The notes below the pieces were generated by a model, which saw only the letters and a list, made by a program, of their open reading frames with translations, was not told the DNA's origin and did no database searches. The position numbers were made by a program, and so were the translations under genes. Below, piece by piece: positions 4,648-64,000 of a stretch of DNA of 64,000 bases (within the stretch, counting starts at the first letter, position 1; each line of letters opens with the position of its first letter). The stretch comes from Acidobacteriota bacterium. GTDB taxonomy: Bacteria > Acidobacteriota > Vicinamibacteria > Vicinamibacterales > CAVVIG01. The stretch is taken from NCBI GenBank assembly GCA_016195265.1, contig JACPZW010000085.1:1-64000 (forward strand). Direction: 5' to 3'.

Positions 4648-4783
4648 GTAGGGCGGGTCCTTTGGGACCCGCCTGACCGTGCCGGGTCCAAAGGACCCGG
4701 CCTACTGATCATCGCGACCGCCGGGTCCAAAGGACCCGGCCTACTGATCATCGCGACCGCCGGGTCCGAAGGACCCGGCCTAC
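4648..4783. repeat. REP-like array: four hairpins, last two in a 39-bp tandem period
   Basis: tgatcatcgcgaccgccgggtccRaaggacccggcctac occurs twice in tandem after a BIME pair. Confidence 0.9.
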
Positions 4784-11602: not shown

Positions 11603-11755
11603 GTAGGCCGGGTCCTTGGAGCCCAAGTAGGCCGGGTCCTTCTGGACCCGGCTGACCGGCGGGTCCGAAAGGACCCGCCCTACAATTCGCGACCGGCGGG
11701 TCCGAAAGGACCCGCCCTACAATTCGACAGGCGGGTCCAATTGGACCCGCCCTAC
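11603..11755. repeat. REP-like array of at least four hairpins
   Basis: gtaggccgggtccttctggacccggc and repeated cggcgggtccgaaaggacccgccctacaattcg. Confidence 0.9.
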
Positions 11756-35221: not shown

Positions 35222-35236
35222 TCGGCGCAGTGATCT

Positions 35237-35370
35237 GTAGGGCGGGTCCTTCCGGACCCGCCTGTAGGGCAGGGCCTTTGCATTGATGTGTAGGGCGGGT
35301 CCTTTTGGACCCGCCTGTAGGGCGGGGCCTTTGCGTTGATGTGTAGGGCGGGTCCTTTCGGACCCGCCTG
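35237..35370. repeat. REP tandem array, 53-bp period, about 2.5 copies
   Basis: gtagggcgggtcc starts at 35237, 35290 and 35343. Confidence 0.92.
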
Positions 35371-55736: not shown

Positions 55737-55908
55737 GTAGGGCGGGTCCTTTTGGACCCGCCACAGTGTTCTAGATCTGTAGGGCGGGTCCTTTGGACCC
55801 GCCACAGCGCTCAGCCGGGTCCGAACCGCTTTCGCCACGGCTACAGCGGTCAAGAAGGACCCGGCCTACTCCCGCAGATCAGTAGGGCGGGTCCTTTCGG
55901 ACCCGCCT
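55737..55908. repeat. REP cluster: two 42-bp-spaced copies, one copy with nested loop hairpin, one further copy
   Basis: agatctgtagggcgggtccttt(t)ggacccgccacag twice; gccgggtccgaaccgctttcgccacggctacagcggtcaagaaggacccggcctac; gtagggcgggtcctttcggacccgcc. Confidence 0.9.
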
Positions 55909-57869
55909 GCCAGCCAAGCCGCCAGATCTTCATGACCGACGATCATCCGCGATCGTCCGGCCGCGACGTGTGCGAGGCGACGCGCACGCCAGTCCGCAAT
56001 CACATCCGCGCGCGCGGGTTCGATCGCGACGGCGGCTCGCGCCCAGCCGTCGATCAACTGCTCCTGCAGGTCGCGCGATTCGGGCGTCAGTTCCCAATCG
56101 CTGCGCTCGCGCCGCACTTCATAGCCACGCTCGGTGAAACAGCGCCCCGCCGCACCCGCTGCGTCGGGCCCGAGCGCGGGCCCGAATCCCTTGTCGGTCC
56201 GCTGATGCCGGTTGACGAGATCGCGGACGAATTCATCGTCGCGTTCGGCCGGCGAGCACTCGATTCGGCCGTCGTACGTCAGTGAGAACAGGACGGCCGA
56301 GCGATTCGCGGCGCACTGCTCCGCCAGCGCGCGGAGCCAGGATTCGGAGACGAGGTCGAGCAGCGCAGACGCCGTCACCAGATGGCGACCCGCGAACACG
56401 TCACCGAGGACCCTGAGATCGGCCGCGTGTGTCTTCGCCGACGGAACGCGCACGGACGCTCGCGCGAGCAGGCTCGGGTCATGGTCCACGAGCAGCCAGT
56501 CCTGCTCGGACGTTGGCAGTCGAGCGATCAGGTACCGCGCATTCGCGCCGGTGCCGGCGCCGAGATCGAGGATGCGCAGCGGCCGCGCCCGCGGCAGCCC
56601 GTCCGCGATCGCGCGCGTCAGCGCAGCGGACCGCGCCGCGGTGTCCGCTGGCTCACGCAGCGCCAGCCAGTCGGCGCTGAAGATGGCGTCGTGGCGGGTC
56701 CGCACGACCCGCCCTGCATCCGCAGTGTCCACGGACAGCGCGGCCGCCATCTTCTCCACCTGCTGATCCCACGTCGGAATTCGATCTCGCGCGAGCTGAG
56801 CGCCATGCGTCAATTGCGCGCGGAGGTTCGCGTCGGTCAGCACGCGTGTCAACGCGGACGCTAATGCGTCTGCATCGCCGGGCGGGACGAGAAGGCCCGC
56901 ATCGCGACCGACGAGTTCTTCGATGCCGCCGGTCGGCGTGCTGATTACCGGCACGCCGTGCGCAAGCGCTTCGGCGACGACCATGCCGTAGCCCTCGTAC
57001 AGCGTCGGCAGGACGAACAGGTCCGCGCGCGCGTACTCGGCGTCGAGCGCGGCGCCGGACATCTCGCCGGCGAATGTCACACGACCTTCGAGTCCGTCGG
57101 CGCGCACCTGCGCGCGCAGCCGCGCGGCCGTCGCCGGATCGCGATCGAGACCGCCGACGCACGTCAGCCGCCACGGAAGATCCCGCAGCATCGCGAGCGC
57201 GCGAAACAAAACGTCGTGACCTTTGCGCGGGGAGAGAGTCGCTACGCACAGCAGACGGAAGTTGGGCGGGTCCTTTGGATATGTAGGGCGGGTCCTTTTG
57301 GACCCGCCGGAGCGATCAGCCGGGTCCGAAAGGACCCGGCCTACTTGGTCCCGATCTACAGGCGGGTCCGAAAGGACCCGCTCTACTGGTCTATCCGTCC
57401 CTGGCTCCACGACGACGATGCGATCGGCGGGAACGTCGTACGCCGCGAGCATGGCCGCCGTCGCGCGACTGGTAACGATGACCTTCCGCGCGCACGCGAG
57501 CGCGCGGCGCTCGCCCGCTTCGAGCGTCGCCGCCAGCGACGCGCTGATGCCGGTCTCGGCCGCAAGCGGATGATGGACGAGCGCGACGAATCGAAGCCGC
57601 CCGGCCTCGCGCTCGACCGCGGCCGGCATGGCGCCGAACGCCAGACCATCGACGAGGACGGTCGCGCCGTCCGCAATTTCGCTGAGGACGCGGGCGGCTC
57701 TGGCGAGCGCGGCCGGCGCCGGCGTGGGAAAGCTGCCGACGATCCCGCGGACCTCGACGGTCCATCCGCGATCGCGCAGCCCGGCGACGATCCGCCGGTC
57801 GTACGCGTAGCCGCCGGTCAGGGTCCGGAGATCGCCTGGAACGATTACGACGAGTGCGGCAGAGCCCAT
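55866..57869 (-). CDS. Glycosyltransferase family 4 fused to class I SAM-dependent methyltransferase, with in-frame REP insertion
   Basis: ADLFVLPTLYEGYGMVVAEALAHGVPVISTPTGGIEELV; LRILDLGAGTGANARYLIARL; REP-coded segment within the GT domain and at the C-terminus. Confidence 0.88.
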   Translation of the reverse strand: MGSAALVVIVPGDLRTLTGGYAYDRRIVAGLRDRGWTVEVRGIVGSFPTPAPAALARAARVLSEIADGATVLVDGLAFGAMPAAVEREAGRLRFVALVHHPLAAETGISASLAATLEAGERRALACARKVIVTSRATAAMLAAYDVPADRIVVVEPGTDRPVERVLSDPPVDRDQVGRVLSDPADRSGGSKRTRPTYPKDPPNFRLLCVATLSPRKGHDVLFRALAMLRDLPWRLTCVGGLDRDPATAARLRAQVRADGLEGRVTFAGEMSGAALDAEYARADLFVLPTLYEGYGMVVAEALAHGVPVISTPTGGIEELVGRDAGLLVPPGDADALASALTRVLTDANLRAQLTHGAQLARDRIPTWDQQVEKMAAALSVDTADAGRVVRTRHDAIFSADWLALREPADTAARSAALTRAIADGLPRARPLRILDLGAGTGANARYLIARLPTSEQDWLLVDHDPSLLARASVRVPSAKTHAADLRVLGDVFAGRHLVTASALLDLVSESWLRALAEQCAANRSAVLFSLTYDGRIECSPAERDDEFVRDLVNRHQRTDKGFGPALGPDAAGAAGRCFTERGYEVRRERSDWELTPESRDLQEQLIDGWARAAVAIEPARADVIADWRARRLAHVAAGRSRMIVGHEDLAAWLAGGSERTRPTDLRE
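57264..57386. repeat. REP array (about 4 hairpins) within the glycosyltransferase coding sequence
   Basis: ttgggcgggtcctttggatatgtagggcgggtccttttggacccgccggagcgatcagccgggtccgaaaggacccggcctac...aggcgggtccgaaaggacccgctctac. Confidence 0.9.
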
Positions 57870-59309: not shown

Positions 59310-61484
59310 ATGAACCTTCTGAAACCTGGCAACCTTGTCACGGCCGTCCGCGCGGCGCTGACCGCCGGCATCGCGGTCGCACTGCTCCAGCCGCACACCG
59401 ATCCCATCGTGTGGACCGTCGTCGCCGCCGCCGTGCTCGTGACGGCGCTCGACGGCGTGGACGGCTGGATCGCGCGGCGCACCGGCACGGTGTCCGCGTT
59501 CGGCGCACGGTTCGACATGGAAGTGGACAGCGCGCTGATCCTCGTTCTCTCGATCCTCGCGTGGCAATACGAGAAAGCCGGGGCGTGGGTGATCCTCTCC
59601 GGACTGCTCCGCTACCTCTTCGTCGCCGCCGGCTGGCAGTGGACGTGGCTCCAGCAGCCGCTCTTCCCCAGCCGCCGGCGTCAGACGATCTGCGTCGTCC
59701 AGGTCGTAGGGTTGATTGCGACGGTCTCGCCGGTCGTCACGCCGCCGACCAGCATCGCGATTGCGGCGACGGCACTGGCCGTGCTCTTTGTTTCATTCGC
59801 TATCGACACGATCTGGCTGATGGGCCGACCAAGGTCGGCCCCTACCGCGGATTTGGGCCGAGCAAGCTCGGCCCCTGCGCCGGATATCGTCGGGCCCGGG
59901 CAGCGCTGGGGGACACTCGCGGTCGCCGTCGCGTTGCTGAACGTGTCGCTCGCGTTCGACAATCTCTGGCCGACACCTGCGATCACGTGGCTTGGGTGTC
60001 TGTCGATCGAGTTCGCCGTCTGCATTCTTCTATTGATCGTCGTGCGCCAATTCGTCGCGCCACCGTCGCGCGCGGCGATCGGCTGGCTGAGCGCGATCTG
60101 GCTGGTGCTGGTCCTCGGCCGGTACGCCGACGTCACCGCGCCCGCACTCTACGGCCGCGACATCAATCTGTACTGGGACCTGCGGTTCATCCCCGACGTG
60201 GCCGCGATGGTGATCCGGGCGGCGCCCGCCTGGCTGATTCTGCTCGCGTGTGTCGTGGCGGCGCTCGTGGTCCTGCTGCTCTATGGGATTCTCCGGGCGG
60301 CGATCGCCCGACTCGCCCGCGCCATGGAGCAGCCGCACGAGCGTCGCGCACTCGCGGTCCTCGCGCTCGCGATGGGCGTGCTCTTCGCCGTCCGGCCCAC
60401 CCCGCCGCTGCAGGACGATCCGCACGTGCTGACGTTCTCCGCACCCGTGACCGCCGTCTACGCGCGGCAGGCGCGGCTCGTCTTCCAGGCCGTCACCGGA
60501 TCGCGCGCGATCGCACCGAGCCCATCGATGGCTTCGGATCTCGCGCTCGTGGACGGCGCGGACGTCTTCCTCATCTTCATCGAGTCGTACGGCGCCGTCA
60601 GCTGGGATCGGCCGGCGTTCGCCGCCTCGCTCGCCGACAGCCGCCGTCAGTTCGACGGCGCCATCCACGCGACGGGACGCGACGTCGTTTCCGCGTTCGT
60701 CGAGTCGCCGACGTTCGGCGGATCGTCGTGGCTGGCGCACATCAGCCTGATGTCCGGCGTCGAAGTCCGCGATCCGGAAACGAACGCGCTGCTGATGACG
60801 AAGCCGCGCGACACGGTGGTCACCGCGTTCAAGCGCCGCGGCTTCCGCACCGTCGCGTTGATGCCCGGGCTGAAACAGCAGTGGCCGGAGGGCGTGTTCT
60901 ACAAGTTCGACGACATCTACAACGCGGACCGGCTGAAATATCGCGGACCCGGGTTCGGCTGGTTCACGATTCCCGATCAGTTTTCGATCGCGAGCCTTGA
61001 CGCCGCCGAGGTGGCGCGGCCGGCGCGCGCGCCGCTCTTCGTGTTCTATCCCACGATCAGCACGCACTTTCCGTTCAGCCCGACGCCGCCGTATCAGCCC
61101 GACTGGCCGCGCGTGCTGACCGCGGATCCGTTCACGGAGGCAGAGGTTGACGACGCGTACTCGACCCAGCCCGACTGGCTGGACTTCGGGCCGGGCTATG
61201 TCGCCGCGCTGACGTACGACTTTGCGGCGATCGGCGGATATCTGACGCGGCGACCCGAGAAAGATGTCGTGATGATTCTGCTCGGCGACCACCAGCCGCC
61301 CGCGGCCGTGAGCCGCGAGGGCGCGCCGTGGGACGTGCCGGTGCACGTCATCGCGAGCCGTCCGGCCGTGCTCGACGCGCTGGTCGCGCGCGGGTTTCAT
61401 CGCGGCCTCTCGCCCGAGCGGCCGACGCTCAGCAAGATGCACGCGTTGCTGCCGACCTTGCTGAGTGCGTTTGGATCGAAGTGA
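59310..61484 (+). CDS. CDP-alcohol phosphatidyltransferase N-terminus fused to a membrane sulfatase-like domain
   Basis: DGVDGWIARRTGTVSAFGARFDMEVDS matches D(x)2DG(x)2AR(x)8G(x)3D(x)3D; sulfatase-like FLIFIESYGAVSW...VMILLGDHQPP. Confidence 0.85.
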   Translation: MNLLKPGNLVTAVRAALTAGIAVALLQPHTDPIVWTVVAAAVLVTALDGVDGWIARRTGTVSAFGARFDMEVDSALILVLSILAWQYEKAGAWVILSGLLRYLFVAAGWQWTWLQQPLFPSRRRQTICVVQVVGLIATVSPVVTPPTSIAIAATALAVLFVSFAIDTIWLMGRPRSAPTADLGRASSAPAPDIVGPGQRWGTLAVAVALLNVSLAFDNLWPTPAITWLGCLSIEFAVCILLLIVVRQFVAPPSRAAIGWLSAIWLVLVLGRYADVTAPALYGRDINLYWDLRFIPDVAAMVIRAAPAWLILLACVVAALVVLLLYGILRAAIARLARAMEQPHERRALAVLALAMGVLFAVRPTPPLQDDPHVLTFSAPVTAVYARQARLVFQAVTGSRAIAPSPSMASDLALVDGADVFLIFIESYGAVSWDRPAFAASLADSRRQFDGAIHATGRDVVSAFVESPTFGGSSWLAHISLMSGVEVRDPETNALLMTKPRDTVVTAFKRRGFRTVALMPGLKQQWPEGVFYKFDDIYNADRLKYRGPGFGWFTIPDQFSIASLDAAEVARPARAPLFVFYPTISTHFPFSPTPPYQPDWPRVLTADPFTEAEVDDAYSTQPDWLDFGPGYVAALTYDFAAIGGYLTRRPEKDVVMILLGDHQPPAAVSREGAPWDVPVHVIASRPAVLDALVARGFHRGLSPERPTLSKMHALLPTLLSAFGSK
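59822..59880. repeat. Two GTAG-family hairpins (gggccgacc-aa-ggtcggccc-ctac; gggccgagc-aa-gctcggccc) at the domain junction
   Basis: Perfect palindromes in frame in the CDS. Confidence 0.85.
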
Positions 61485-61508
61485 GGAGTAGGGCGGGTTG
61501 AGTGACGT

Positions 61509-61566
61509 GTAGGCCGGGTCCTTTCGGACCCGGCATGACCGGCGGGTCCAGAAGGACCCGCCCTAC
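61509..61566. repeat. REP/BIME-like inverted pair
   Basis: gtaggccgggtcctttcggacccggcatgaccggcgggtccagaaggacccgccctac. Confidence 0.9.
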
Positions 61567-62690
61567 ATATCAATAACGAGCGGTTTCGTCGTGACGATGA
61601 CCGACCGCTGCCGCTGCTCGCCGCTGGCGTACTTCAGCAGCAGGGCGTGCGTGCCGAGATCGACGGAGACGTCAACCGGCGTGTCGCCGATCAGCGCGCC
61701 ATCCAGCCACACCTGAGCCGCCGAGTCCGACGTCACGGTCATCGTCGATTTCGGCGGCACAATCGACAGCGGCGCGGTGTCGCCCGGCCTGATCTCGACG
61801 TGCCGCGTGTCCTCGTAGGCCAGCGCGCGATTCTCGATCCGGAGATCGTGCGGCCCGGGCGCGAGCAGCACCTGATGCTTTTCGTCCACGGTGATGGCAC
61901 GGCCTCGCTCGCTGACCGTGACGTCGAAGGGCGAGTACAGCGTCAGCCAGCCAGGGTAGATGGATTCGGCCAGCTCCTGTGAGTCGCCGCCCGCGATCTT
62001 GACGGTTTCTTCCACCGTGCCGTCGGTGTTCTGGAACACCACCGAGTGGGATCCGACGTGGAGATCCTCGATGAGCAGCGGCGTCACGCCCCGCGGCTTG
62101 CCGTCCACGATGACGCGGGCCGGCGCCGGCGCGGCGGTGACGTGCAGCTGTCCCGTCGACGCGCTGATCGCTTTCGCCGGCGGCGGCGTGAGGACGGCGG
62201 CGGCGCGGACCTTCGCCGCCGTCTGCGTCTGCATGGCCGCCTGCCAGTATTCACGCGCGAGCATCGCGACGACGATCAGAGACGTGACGGCCGCGAACGC
62301 CGTGGACATTCGCCAGACGAGCGTGAGCACGGGCGCGGGATTGAATCTGACAGACCGCGCGATCTCCGGCAGCATGCGGAGGGCGTCGATGACGACGGTG
62401 ACCATGTGCGGCGGGGCCTTTGAACCCGCCGCGATGGTGACGTAGGGCGAGTCCTTTGGACCCGCCGCGATGGTGACGTAGGGCGGGTCCTTTGGACCCG
62501 CCGCGATGGTGACGTAGGGCGGGTCCTTTGGACCCGCCGCGACTGCCGGGTCCAGAAGGACCCGGCCTACTTCTACGTCGGCGACGACGGTCCAGGCCGC
62601 GCGGCGCGCGCGCACCCAGCTCGCGGCGGCGTACGCCGCTGCACGCACGTGCGCCCGGCGATTGATCATCACGGGTGACGGCGGCTGCAA
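61563..62690 (-). CDS. PEGA-domain membrane protein with REP tandem inside its N-terminal coding region
   Basis: PARVIVDGKPRGVTPLLIEDLHVGSHSVVFQN; AQVWLDGALIGDTPVDVSVDLGTHAL; TM near LIVVAMLA; (AAGPKDPPYVTI)n. Confidence 0.75.
   Translation of the reverse strand: MQPPSPVMINRRAHVRAAAYAAASWVRARRAAWTVVADVEVGRVLLDPAVAAGPKDPPYVTIAAGPKDPPYVTIAAGPKDSPYVTIAAGSKAPPHMVTVVIDALRMLPEIARSVRFNPAPVLTLVWRMSTAFAAVTSLIVVAMLAREYWQAAMQTQTAAKVRAAAVLTPPPAKAISASTGQLHVTAAPAPARVIVDGKPRGVTPLLIEDLHVGSHSVVFQNTDGTVEETVKIAGGDSQELAESIYPGWLTLYSPFDVTVSERGRAITVDEKHQVLLAPGPHDLRIENRALAYEDTRHVEIRPGDTAPLSIVPPKSTMTVTSDSAAQVWLDGALIGDTPVDVSVDLGTHALLLKYASGEQRQRSVIVTTKPLVIDM
62401..62574. repeat. In-frame REP tandem array, 36-bp period, plus a terminal inverted REP
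   Basis: gtgacgtagggcgRgtcctttggacccgccgcgatg starts at 62437, 62473 and 62509 with a degenerate copy at 62401. Confidence 0.93.
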
Positions 62691-62858
62691 GAGCTAAACC
62701 AGAGACGCTTTTCGCGGATGTTCAATGGCGTGGACGGGCCGCAAAAACCGTGAGACAGAATCGTGATCGCGCTTACAGGATCTGACGCGCAGGAGGTTGC
62801 AACCGGCATGAATCCGGAAGAAAACCGCTGAGGGCCTTGGCGTTGGCCTTGCACTTTC

Positions 62859-64000
62859 ATGAGTGTCATTTCCCCTGAAGCCGTGATCCGCAAGCCCGTC
62901 GAAGACATCAAGCGCGATCACCCCGGCGCCGCCACGGGCGACCTGGACGAGCTGCGCCACGCGCTGACCGCGCGCCTCTCGGCCCTCGAAGCCGCGCTCG
63001 CGGATCCCGGTCAGAGCGCTGTGCTCGAACGCCTGACAATCGATCTCGCGCGCGTCGCGACGGCCGAGGCCGAAGCATCCGCCGCTCAGGCCTGGGCGGA
63101 CGCGGCCGCGAAAGTACGCGACCACGCCGTGACGCTCCGCGAGACCGCAGCGGCGCTGGACGCGGAGCGCGCGTCCACTGCCGCGCTGCAGCGCGATCTC
63201 GGCCGGCTCCGGACGGCCTACGAAGCCGAGTGCGGAACCGTCGCGCAGCTGAGGCGCGATCTGGCCGCCGCCCACACCGCGAGCAAGGGCGAGCGTGACG
63301 CGGCCGCGCAGGCCGCCGCGACGATCGCGCGCCTGCGGCAGGACCTCGACGGCGTCCAGCGCGCGGCCAAGGTCAGAATCGCCGAGCTCGAAGGCGCGTC
63401 GGCGCGCTCCACGGCCGAGTCCAACCGGCACGTTGCGGAAATGGACGCGCTCAAGGCGGAACTCGAGGCGAGCCGCGAGGCCACGGCCGCCGCCGAAGTT
63501 GACGCCCGCGCGCGTTACGACGCGCGGCTCGACAGCGATCGCGCGCAATTCGCAGAGCGCCTCGCGGACGCCCGCGCGCACATCGAGGAGCGCCTCGAGG
63601 AGGCCCGCACGCAGCTTGACGGCCGAGTTGCGAACGCGCAGGCGCCGCTGAACGGGCGCATTTGCGATCTCGAACTCGAGCTCGCGGCGGTTCAGAGCGC
63701 GGCGACGGCGAGAATCGCGGACGTGGAGAAGTCGGCGGACGGCTTCAGAATCGCCGCGGACCGGCTCAGAGACGATGTCGATCGTGCCAGGGGCGACGCG
63801 GACCGCGTCAAGAGCGACGCGGACCGCGTCAAAGAAGTCGCGCACCGCCTGACGGAGGAACTGGAAGCGGCGCGCTCCTCCGCCAGAGCCGCTGAGGCGG
63901 AGGCCGAAGCGCGATACGAACACGCGCGCGAGCAGGCCGACCGGCGCATCCTGGATCTGGAGCTCGAAATCGACGAGCGCAACCGCGAAATCAGGAAGCG
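62859..64000 (+). CDS. Long alanine-rich coiled-coil protein (3' truncated by window edge; absent from supplied ORF track)
   Basis: Stop-free from ATG 62859 to window end: MSVISPEAVIRKPVEDIKRDHPGAATGDLDELRHALTARLSALEAAL...; heptad-like composition. Confidence 0.75.
   Translation, partial: MSVISPEAVIRKPVEDIKRDHPGAATGDLDELRHALTARLSALEAALADPGQSAVLERLTIDLARVATAEAEASAAQAWADAAAKVRDHAVTLRETAAALDAERASTAALQRDLGRLRTAYEAECGTVAQLRRDLAAAHTASKGERDAAAQAAATIARLRQDLDGVQRAAKVRIAELEGASARSTAESNRHVAEMDALKAELEASREATAAAEVDARARYDARLDSDRAQFAERLADARAHIEERLEEARTQLDGRVANAQAPLNGRICDLELELAAVQSAATARIADVEKSADGFRIAADRLRDDVDRARGDADRVKSDADRVKEVAHRLTEELEAARSSARAAEAEAEARYEHAREQADRRILDLELEIDERNREIRK

Follow-up and report, generated by a model that had tools for sequence, protein, structure and literature searches.

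The window, i.e. the whole stretch of 64,000 nucleotides analysed here, carries a minus-strand gene encoding a PEGA-domain membrane protein, whose start at ATG 62669 was picked by a codon-usage gene finder independently of homology and whose match to PF08308 is well above threshold (E 1.2e-13, 51.2 bits against a cut-off of 20.8). An array of REP units is contained in this gene, and the features of the locus, arranged from the 5' to the 3' end of the gene, are:

61563..62669, minus strand: PEGA-domain membrane protein gene, 368 aa; ATG at 62669 (GTG at 62672 possible), TAG stop at 61563-61565
62592..62651, minus strand: conserved N-terminal helix HVRAAAYAAASWVRARRAAW, preceding the array in the gene
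62545..62570, minus strand: single REP with its GTAG tag at 62570; encodes VGRVLLDPA
62514..62538, plus strand: array REP GTAGGGCGGGTCCTTTGGACCCGCC; the minus strand encodes AAGPKDPPYVTI
62478..62502, plus strand: array REP, the same 25-mer as at 62514..62538
62442..62466, plus strand: array REP with one change (GAGTCC)
62410..62430, plus strand: degenerate array REP GGCGGGGCCTTTGAACCCGCC without the GTAG tag; encodes AAGSKAPPH
62431-62441, 62467-62477 and 62503-62513, no strand assigned: 11-nt linker GCGATGGTGAC, three times
62253..62309, minus strand: predicted transmembrane helix MSTAFAAVTSLIVVAMLAR, the hydropathy maximum
62034..62153, minus strand: best PEGA domain stretch (PF08308, residues 180-219 of the 375-aa ORF)
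61509..61566, no strand assigned: inverted REP pair at the 3' end of the PEGA gene, whose GTAG supplies the TAG stop

Orthologs in the family share one layout, namely a helix motif near the N-terminus, a variable linker, a transmembrane helix and PEGA domains, and the array can be assigned to the linker because the conserved helix lies upstream of it and the transmembrane helix and PEGA domains downstream. The 36-bp tandem array was delimited by Tandem Repeats Finder to 62410-62542 (3.7 copies, 95% matches, no indels), which bears out the sequence-only reading, according to which a degenerate copy precedes units of period 36 beginning at 62437, 62473 and 62509. Two further claims made there also hold, that of a repeated minus-strand peptide and that of a period preserving the reading frame: the minus frame through the array reads AAGPKDPPYVTI twice and AAGPKDSPYVTI once, followed by AAGSKAPPHMVTV, and a gain or loss of units leaves the frame intact, each unit being 12 codons long and the array itself free of indels. 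The REP at 62545-62570, which is inverted with respect to the array units and directly adjoins the array, and the REP pair at 61509-61566 had both escaped that reading. As the genome is a draft of 87 contigs, the assembly may misstate the exact number of such near-identical units. CRISPR was ruled out, all three linkers being identical and not distinct spacers, and an Rfam scan of 61000-63200 matched no family.

The repeat of the array is a GTAG-type REP with a cognate RAYT. Exact matches to the pattern of its palindrome, GTAGGSCGGGTCC-loop-GGACCCGSC, number 451 across the genome (i.e. at least 451 copies) versus none for a reversed-pattern control, and the window holds 40 palindrome matches versus a mean of 4.7 in shuffled sequences; the units thus combine a palindrome of 20-40 bp, a GTAG at one end and a high copy number. 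Their distribution was followed, at no more than one mismatch per unit, in a sample of 851 kb composed of the window and about 787 kb of further stretches, which were partly chosen for their REPs, so that its REP density should not be generalised; palindrome matches with two mismatches within genes were mostly due to chance and were excluded. Here, 245 units form 111 clusters, in which closely spaced pairs and larger groups, inverted or in tandem, are common, and 197 of the units are intergenic, though about 90% of the sample was called as coding. The only Y1_Tnp gene of the genome (L069; PF01797, E 2.4e-8) has REP clusters on both sides, with 13 REP cores around the gene, and its product shows the HVH motif as well as the tyrosine of YILANPVRAGL. 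The RAYT of the sister species G001 (L172) is 78% identical and likewise flanked by the same palindrome; none of the further RAYT loci inspected in the family has it on its flanks. The palindrome is present in 451 copies in this genome, 376 in G001 and 8 in the third congener, G002, and in 0 to 33 copies elsewhere in the family. The RAYT presumably mobilises these REPs, a relation suggested by the correlation of copy numbers. Overall, the REP is a selfish-looking hairpin repeat, which is common in this bacterium.

Comparison with the ortholog of G001 indicates how the array may have arisen. The first REP occupies the same position in both orthologs, and an insertion therefore predates the separation of these two species. 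What entered the DNA of the variable linker, between the N-terminal and the transmembrane helix, was a REP and probably a REP pair. Beyond this first REP, the 36-bp array is found here versus a different REP cluster in G001, which is also in frame and has its units about 33 bp apart, as estimated by eye from the sequence. In the lineage studied here, one REP together with about 11 bp of neighbouring DNA would have been duplicated in tandem in steps of 36 bp, and in the sister species the other cluster would have grown instead. Local tandem duplication of a REP with its neighbouring DNA is the probable route of growth, because the linker DNA of the 36-bp unit is found nowhere else in the genome: the pattern CCGCGATGGTGACGTAGG, searched with up to two mismatches, has three matches genome-wide, all of them within the array. 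Across the genome, intergenic REPs often show this type of growth too, with other periods. Such intergenic arrays are also found in the window at 4681-4783 (period 39), 11654-11755 (period 37) and 35227-35370 (period 53), each with its own linker. We considered whether a period divisible by three could serve as evidence of selection, as it occurs in four of the four distinct coding arrays (one of them, in which periods of 57 and 29 were both found, counted once as 57) versus 11 of the 23 intergenic ones, and rejected this, the arrays being too few.

Growth of this kind raises the question of a contingency-like locus, in which the copy number would often change between cells and the length of the linker would tune the reach or the activity of the protein. 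The near-identity of the array units, the different in-frame REP set of the sister species and the variation of linker length across the family (94 residues here, 84 in G001 and 49-123 in most REP-free orthologs, a range which excludes the ortholog L073 with its unreliable helix call) are all in line with this. We nevertheless regard it as improbable: intergenic REPs grow in tandem likewise genome-wide, so that no gene-specific benefit is needed, and what sets the sister species apart is its REP composition, not the copy number of one unit. Furthermore, the on/off frameshift switching of phase-variable loci is absent, as steps of 36 bp cannot toggle the frame.

As to whether the array is translated, the open frame alone proves little: five of the six REP frames are free of stop codons, and among the 85 intergenic REP clusters in the sample 68 likewise have at least one open frame; we therefore discarded it as weak evidence of coding. 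More informative is the region upstream. Alignment with REP-free PEGA orthologs, a check proposed in the sequence-only reading, placed the array in the linker and revealed the helix motif AAAxAxxxWxRxxRxxW in each of the 13 REP-free orthologs whose N-terminus is comparable, including those from other genera; in the PEGA gene, this motif is upstream of the array and in frame with it. Relative to the G001 ortholog, 9 of 12 substitutions in the helix fall on third codon positions (dN 0.10, dS 0.70, dN/dS about 0.15, approximate values given the short segment). Since the helix is conserved in REP-free orthologs and its changes are biased towards synonymous ones, translation most likely starts upstream, at about 62669, and the array appears to be protein-coding, inside the variable linker, which agrees with the earlier proposal that it is in frame within the coding part of the gene as added coding sequence. 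Translation would run through the array, given that five of the six REP frames lack a stop and the period of 36 bp is divisible by three; the G001 ortholog, too, is open through its own REP set, and the linkers of both genes fall within the length range of most REP-free orthologs.

By the same evidence, the alternative start at MVTVVIDALR (ATG 62405), which had also been suggested and which would leave the array as an untranslated leader with the REPs as 5' mRNA hairpins, is very unlikely. This start codon does exist in the present genome, the RNA of the array folds far better than shuffled sequences (-103.9 kcal/mol, z = -8.75), and according to the 2013 REP survey, which advises caution here, many intragenic REPs at N-termini may reflect misannotated starts (PMC3733652). 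But the upstream helix is conserved and under purifying selection, and the ortholog of the same genus, G001, has no start codon at the point matching MVTVV. That mRNA hairpins in the coding region, and not the peptide, are what is kept, for translation pausing or mRNA stability, is hardly credible either: the strong predicted RNA structure of the array would suit it, but this structure is an automatic consequence of the palindrome, coding-region REPs use five different reading frames in unrelated genes, and most orthologs are without REPs.

Based on these data, we consider the array to stem from insertion of a RAYT-associated GTAG-type REP into the coding part of the gene for the PEGA-domain membrane protein, with a probability of about 0.9. 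Translation would read through it and add AAGPKDPPYVTI repeats to a length-tolerant linker. The effect on the protein is most likely near neutral, and selection would mainly purge those insertions which break the frame or the fold.

The PEGA array exemplifies a habit which this REP shows genome-wide: it enters genes and leaves the frame unbroken. In the 851-kb sample with its roughly 90% called coding, 48 of the 245 units lie within called genes, the calls being those of a home-made codon-usage finder and not a standard annotation (its printed minus-strand coordinates are 3 bases too high); REPs are hence strongly depleted in genes, but far from absent. All five stop-free REP frames are used in coding regions, and 19 of 719 called genes terminate on the TAG of a REP. 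Carriers supported by Pfam comprise GuaA, an ABC-2 permease, a MacB/FtsX permease, two GT4 glycosyltransferases, a DUF58 protein and a DEAD-box/MZB helicase. Two of them, located outside the window, are:

L117:1567-3195 (G000:C6): guaA, with two in-frame REPs inside one loop of its glutamine amidotransferase domain
L119:2199-3503 (G000:C37): ABC-2 permease gene, five in-frame REPs, of which four form a tandem array of period 42 bp

In GuaA, the in-frame REPs occupy one loop and number two in this genome, two in G001 and one in G002, and none is recognisable in 15 other family members. The REP stretch is an insertion relative to solved GMP synthases, because the best PDB match, 5tw7, aligns on both sides of it (residues 1-111 and 151-542 of the query) and leaves it unaligned. 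For the ABC-2 permease, the match to the G002 homolog begins only past the REP block. In the window itself, a glycosyltransferase-methyltransferase fusion gene (55866-57869, minus strand) contains three in-frame REPs at 57289-57380, between the two glycosyltransferase lobes, and a further REP close to its 3' end, at 55888. The window also holds a second GTAG-tagged palindrome family, GTAGGGGCCGA-loop-TCGGCCC, with 33 exact pattern matches genome-wide and five in each of the two congeners; its minus-strand palindrome occurs twice at 59821-59885, with a period of 33 bp, in frame in a plus-strand gene with a CDP-alcohol phosphatidyltransferase domain (59310-61484). One may speculate that RAYT-driven REPs are a continuing source of protein sequence in this genus, with loop and linker insertions being kept, growing and shrinking in whole codons, and forming fast-evolving, possibly length-variable parts of ordinary and even of essential proteins; we judge this to be rather unlikely.

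With respect to known systems, RPE-1, one of the Rickettsia palindromic elements (RPE), is longer than the REP described here. As a phenomenon, to which the comparison is confined, RPEs are similar in being palindromic repeats found in frame in many unrelated genes (PMC3733652), whereas our case combines a cognate RAYT with tandem growth. REPINs with their RAYT in Pseudomonas fluorescens (PMC3116915) likewise consist of dispersed inverted REP pairs accompanied by one RAYT gene; typical REPINs are described as extragenic (PMC3116915), whereas about one fifth of the copies in our sampled DNA is within a called gene. The closest counterpart is given by the GTAG REPs described in 2013 in BMC Genomics, together with their transposases, tandem growth including flanking DNA and REP-derived TAG stops (PMC3733652); intragenic copies were reported there from several species, with clusters encoding 43-82 residues in some. 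The repeats studied here share with them the GTAG tag, the short palindrome, the high copy number, the pairs and tandem groups including flanking DNA, the REP-flanked tyrosine transposase, the in-frame copies in unrelated genes and the TAG stops provided by REPs. Unlike those cases, ours offers a comparison within one genus, with one shared insertion and lineage-specific regrowth, and has guaA and the PEGA linker as targets.

Intragenic GTAG-REPs have thus been known since 2013 (PMC3733652), and the array presented here is a new, well-supported example. Owing to the REP-free orthologs and one partly shared insertion, it is a clear case in which a REP is coding sequence rather than part of a misannotated leader, and it passes the main doubt which the 2013 survey raised on N-terminal REPs (PMC3733652). 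With two REP-rich genomes and one containing few copies, the genus is well suited for testing how often REP insertions survive within genes and what effects they have on proteins such as GuaA.
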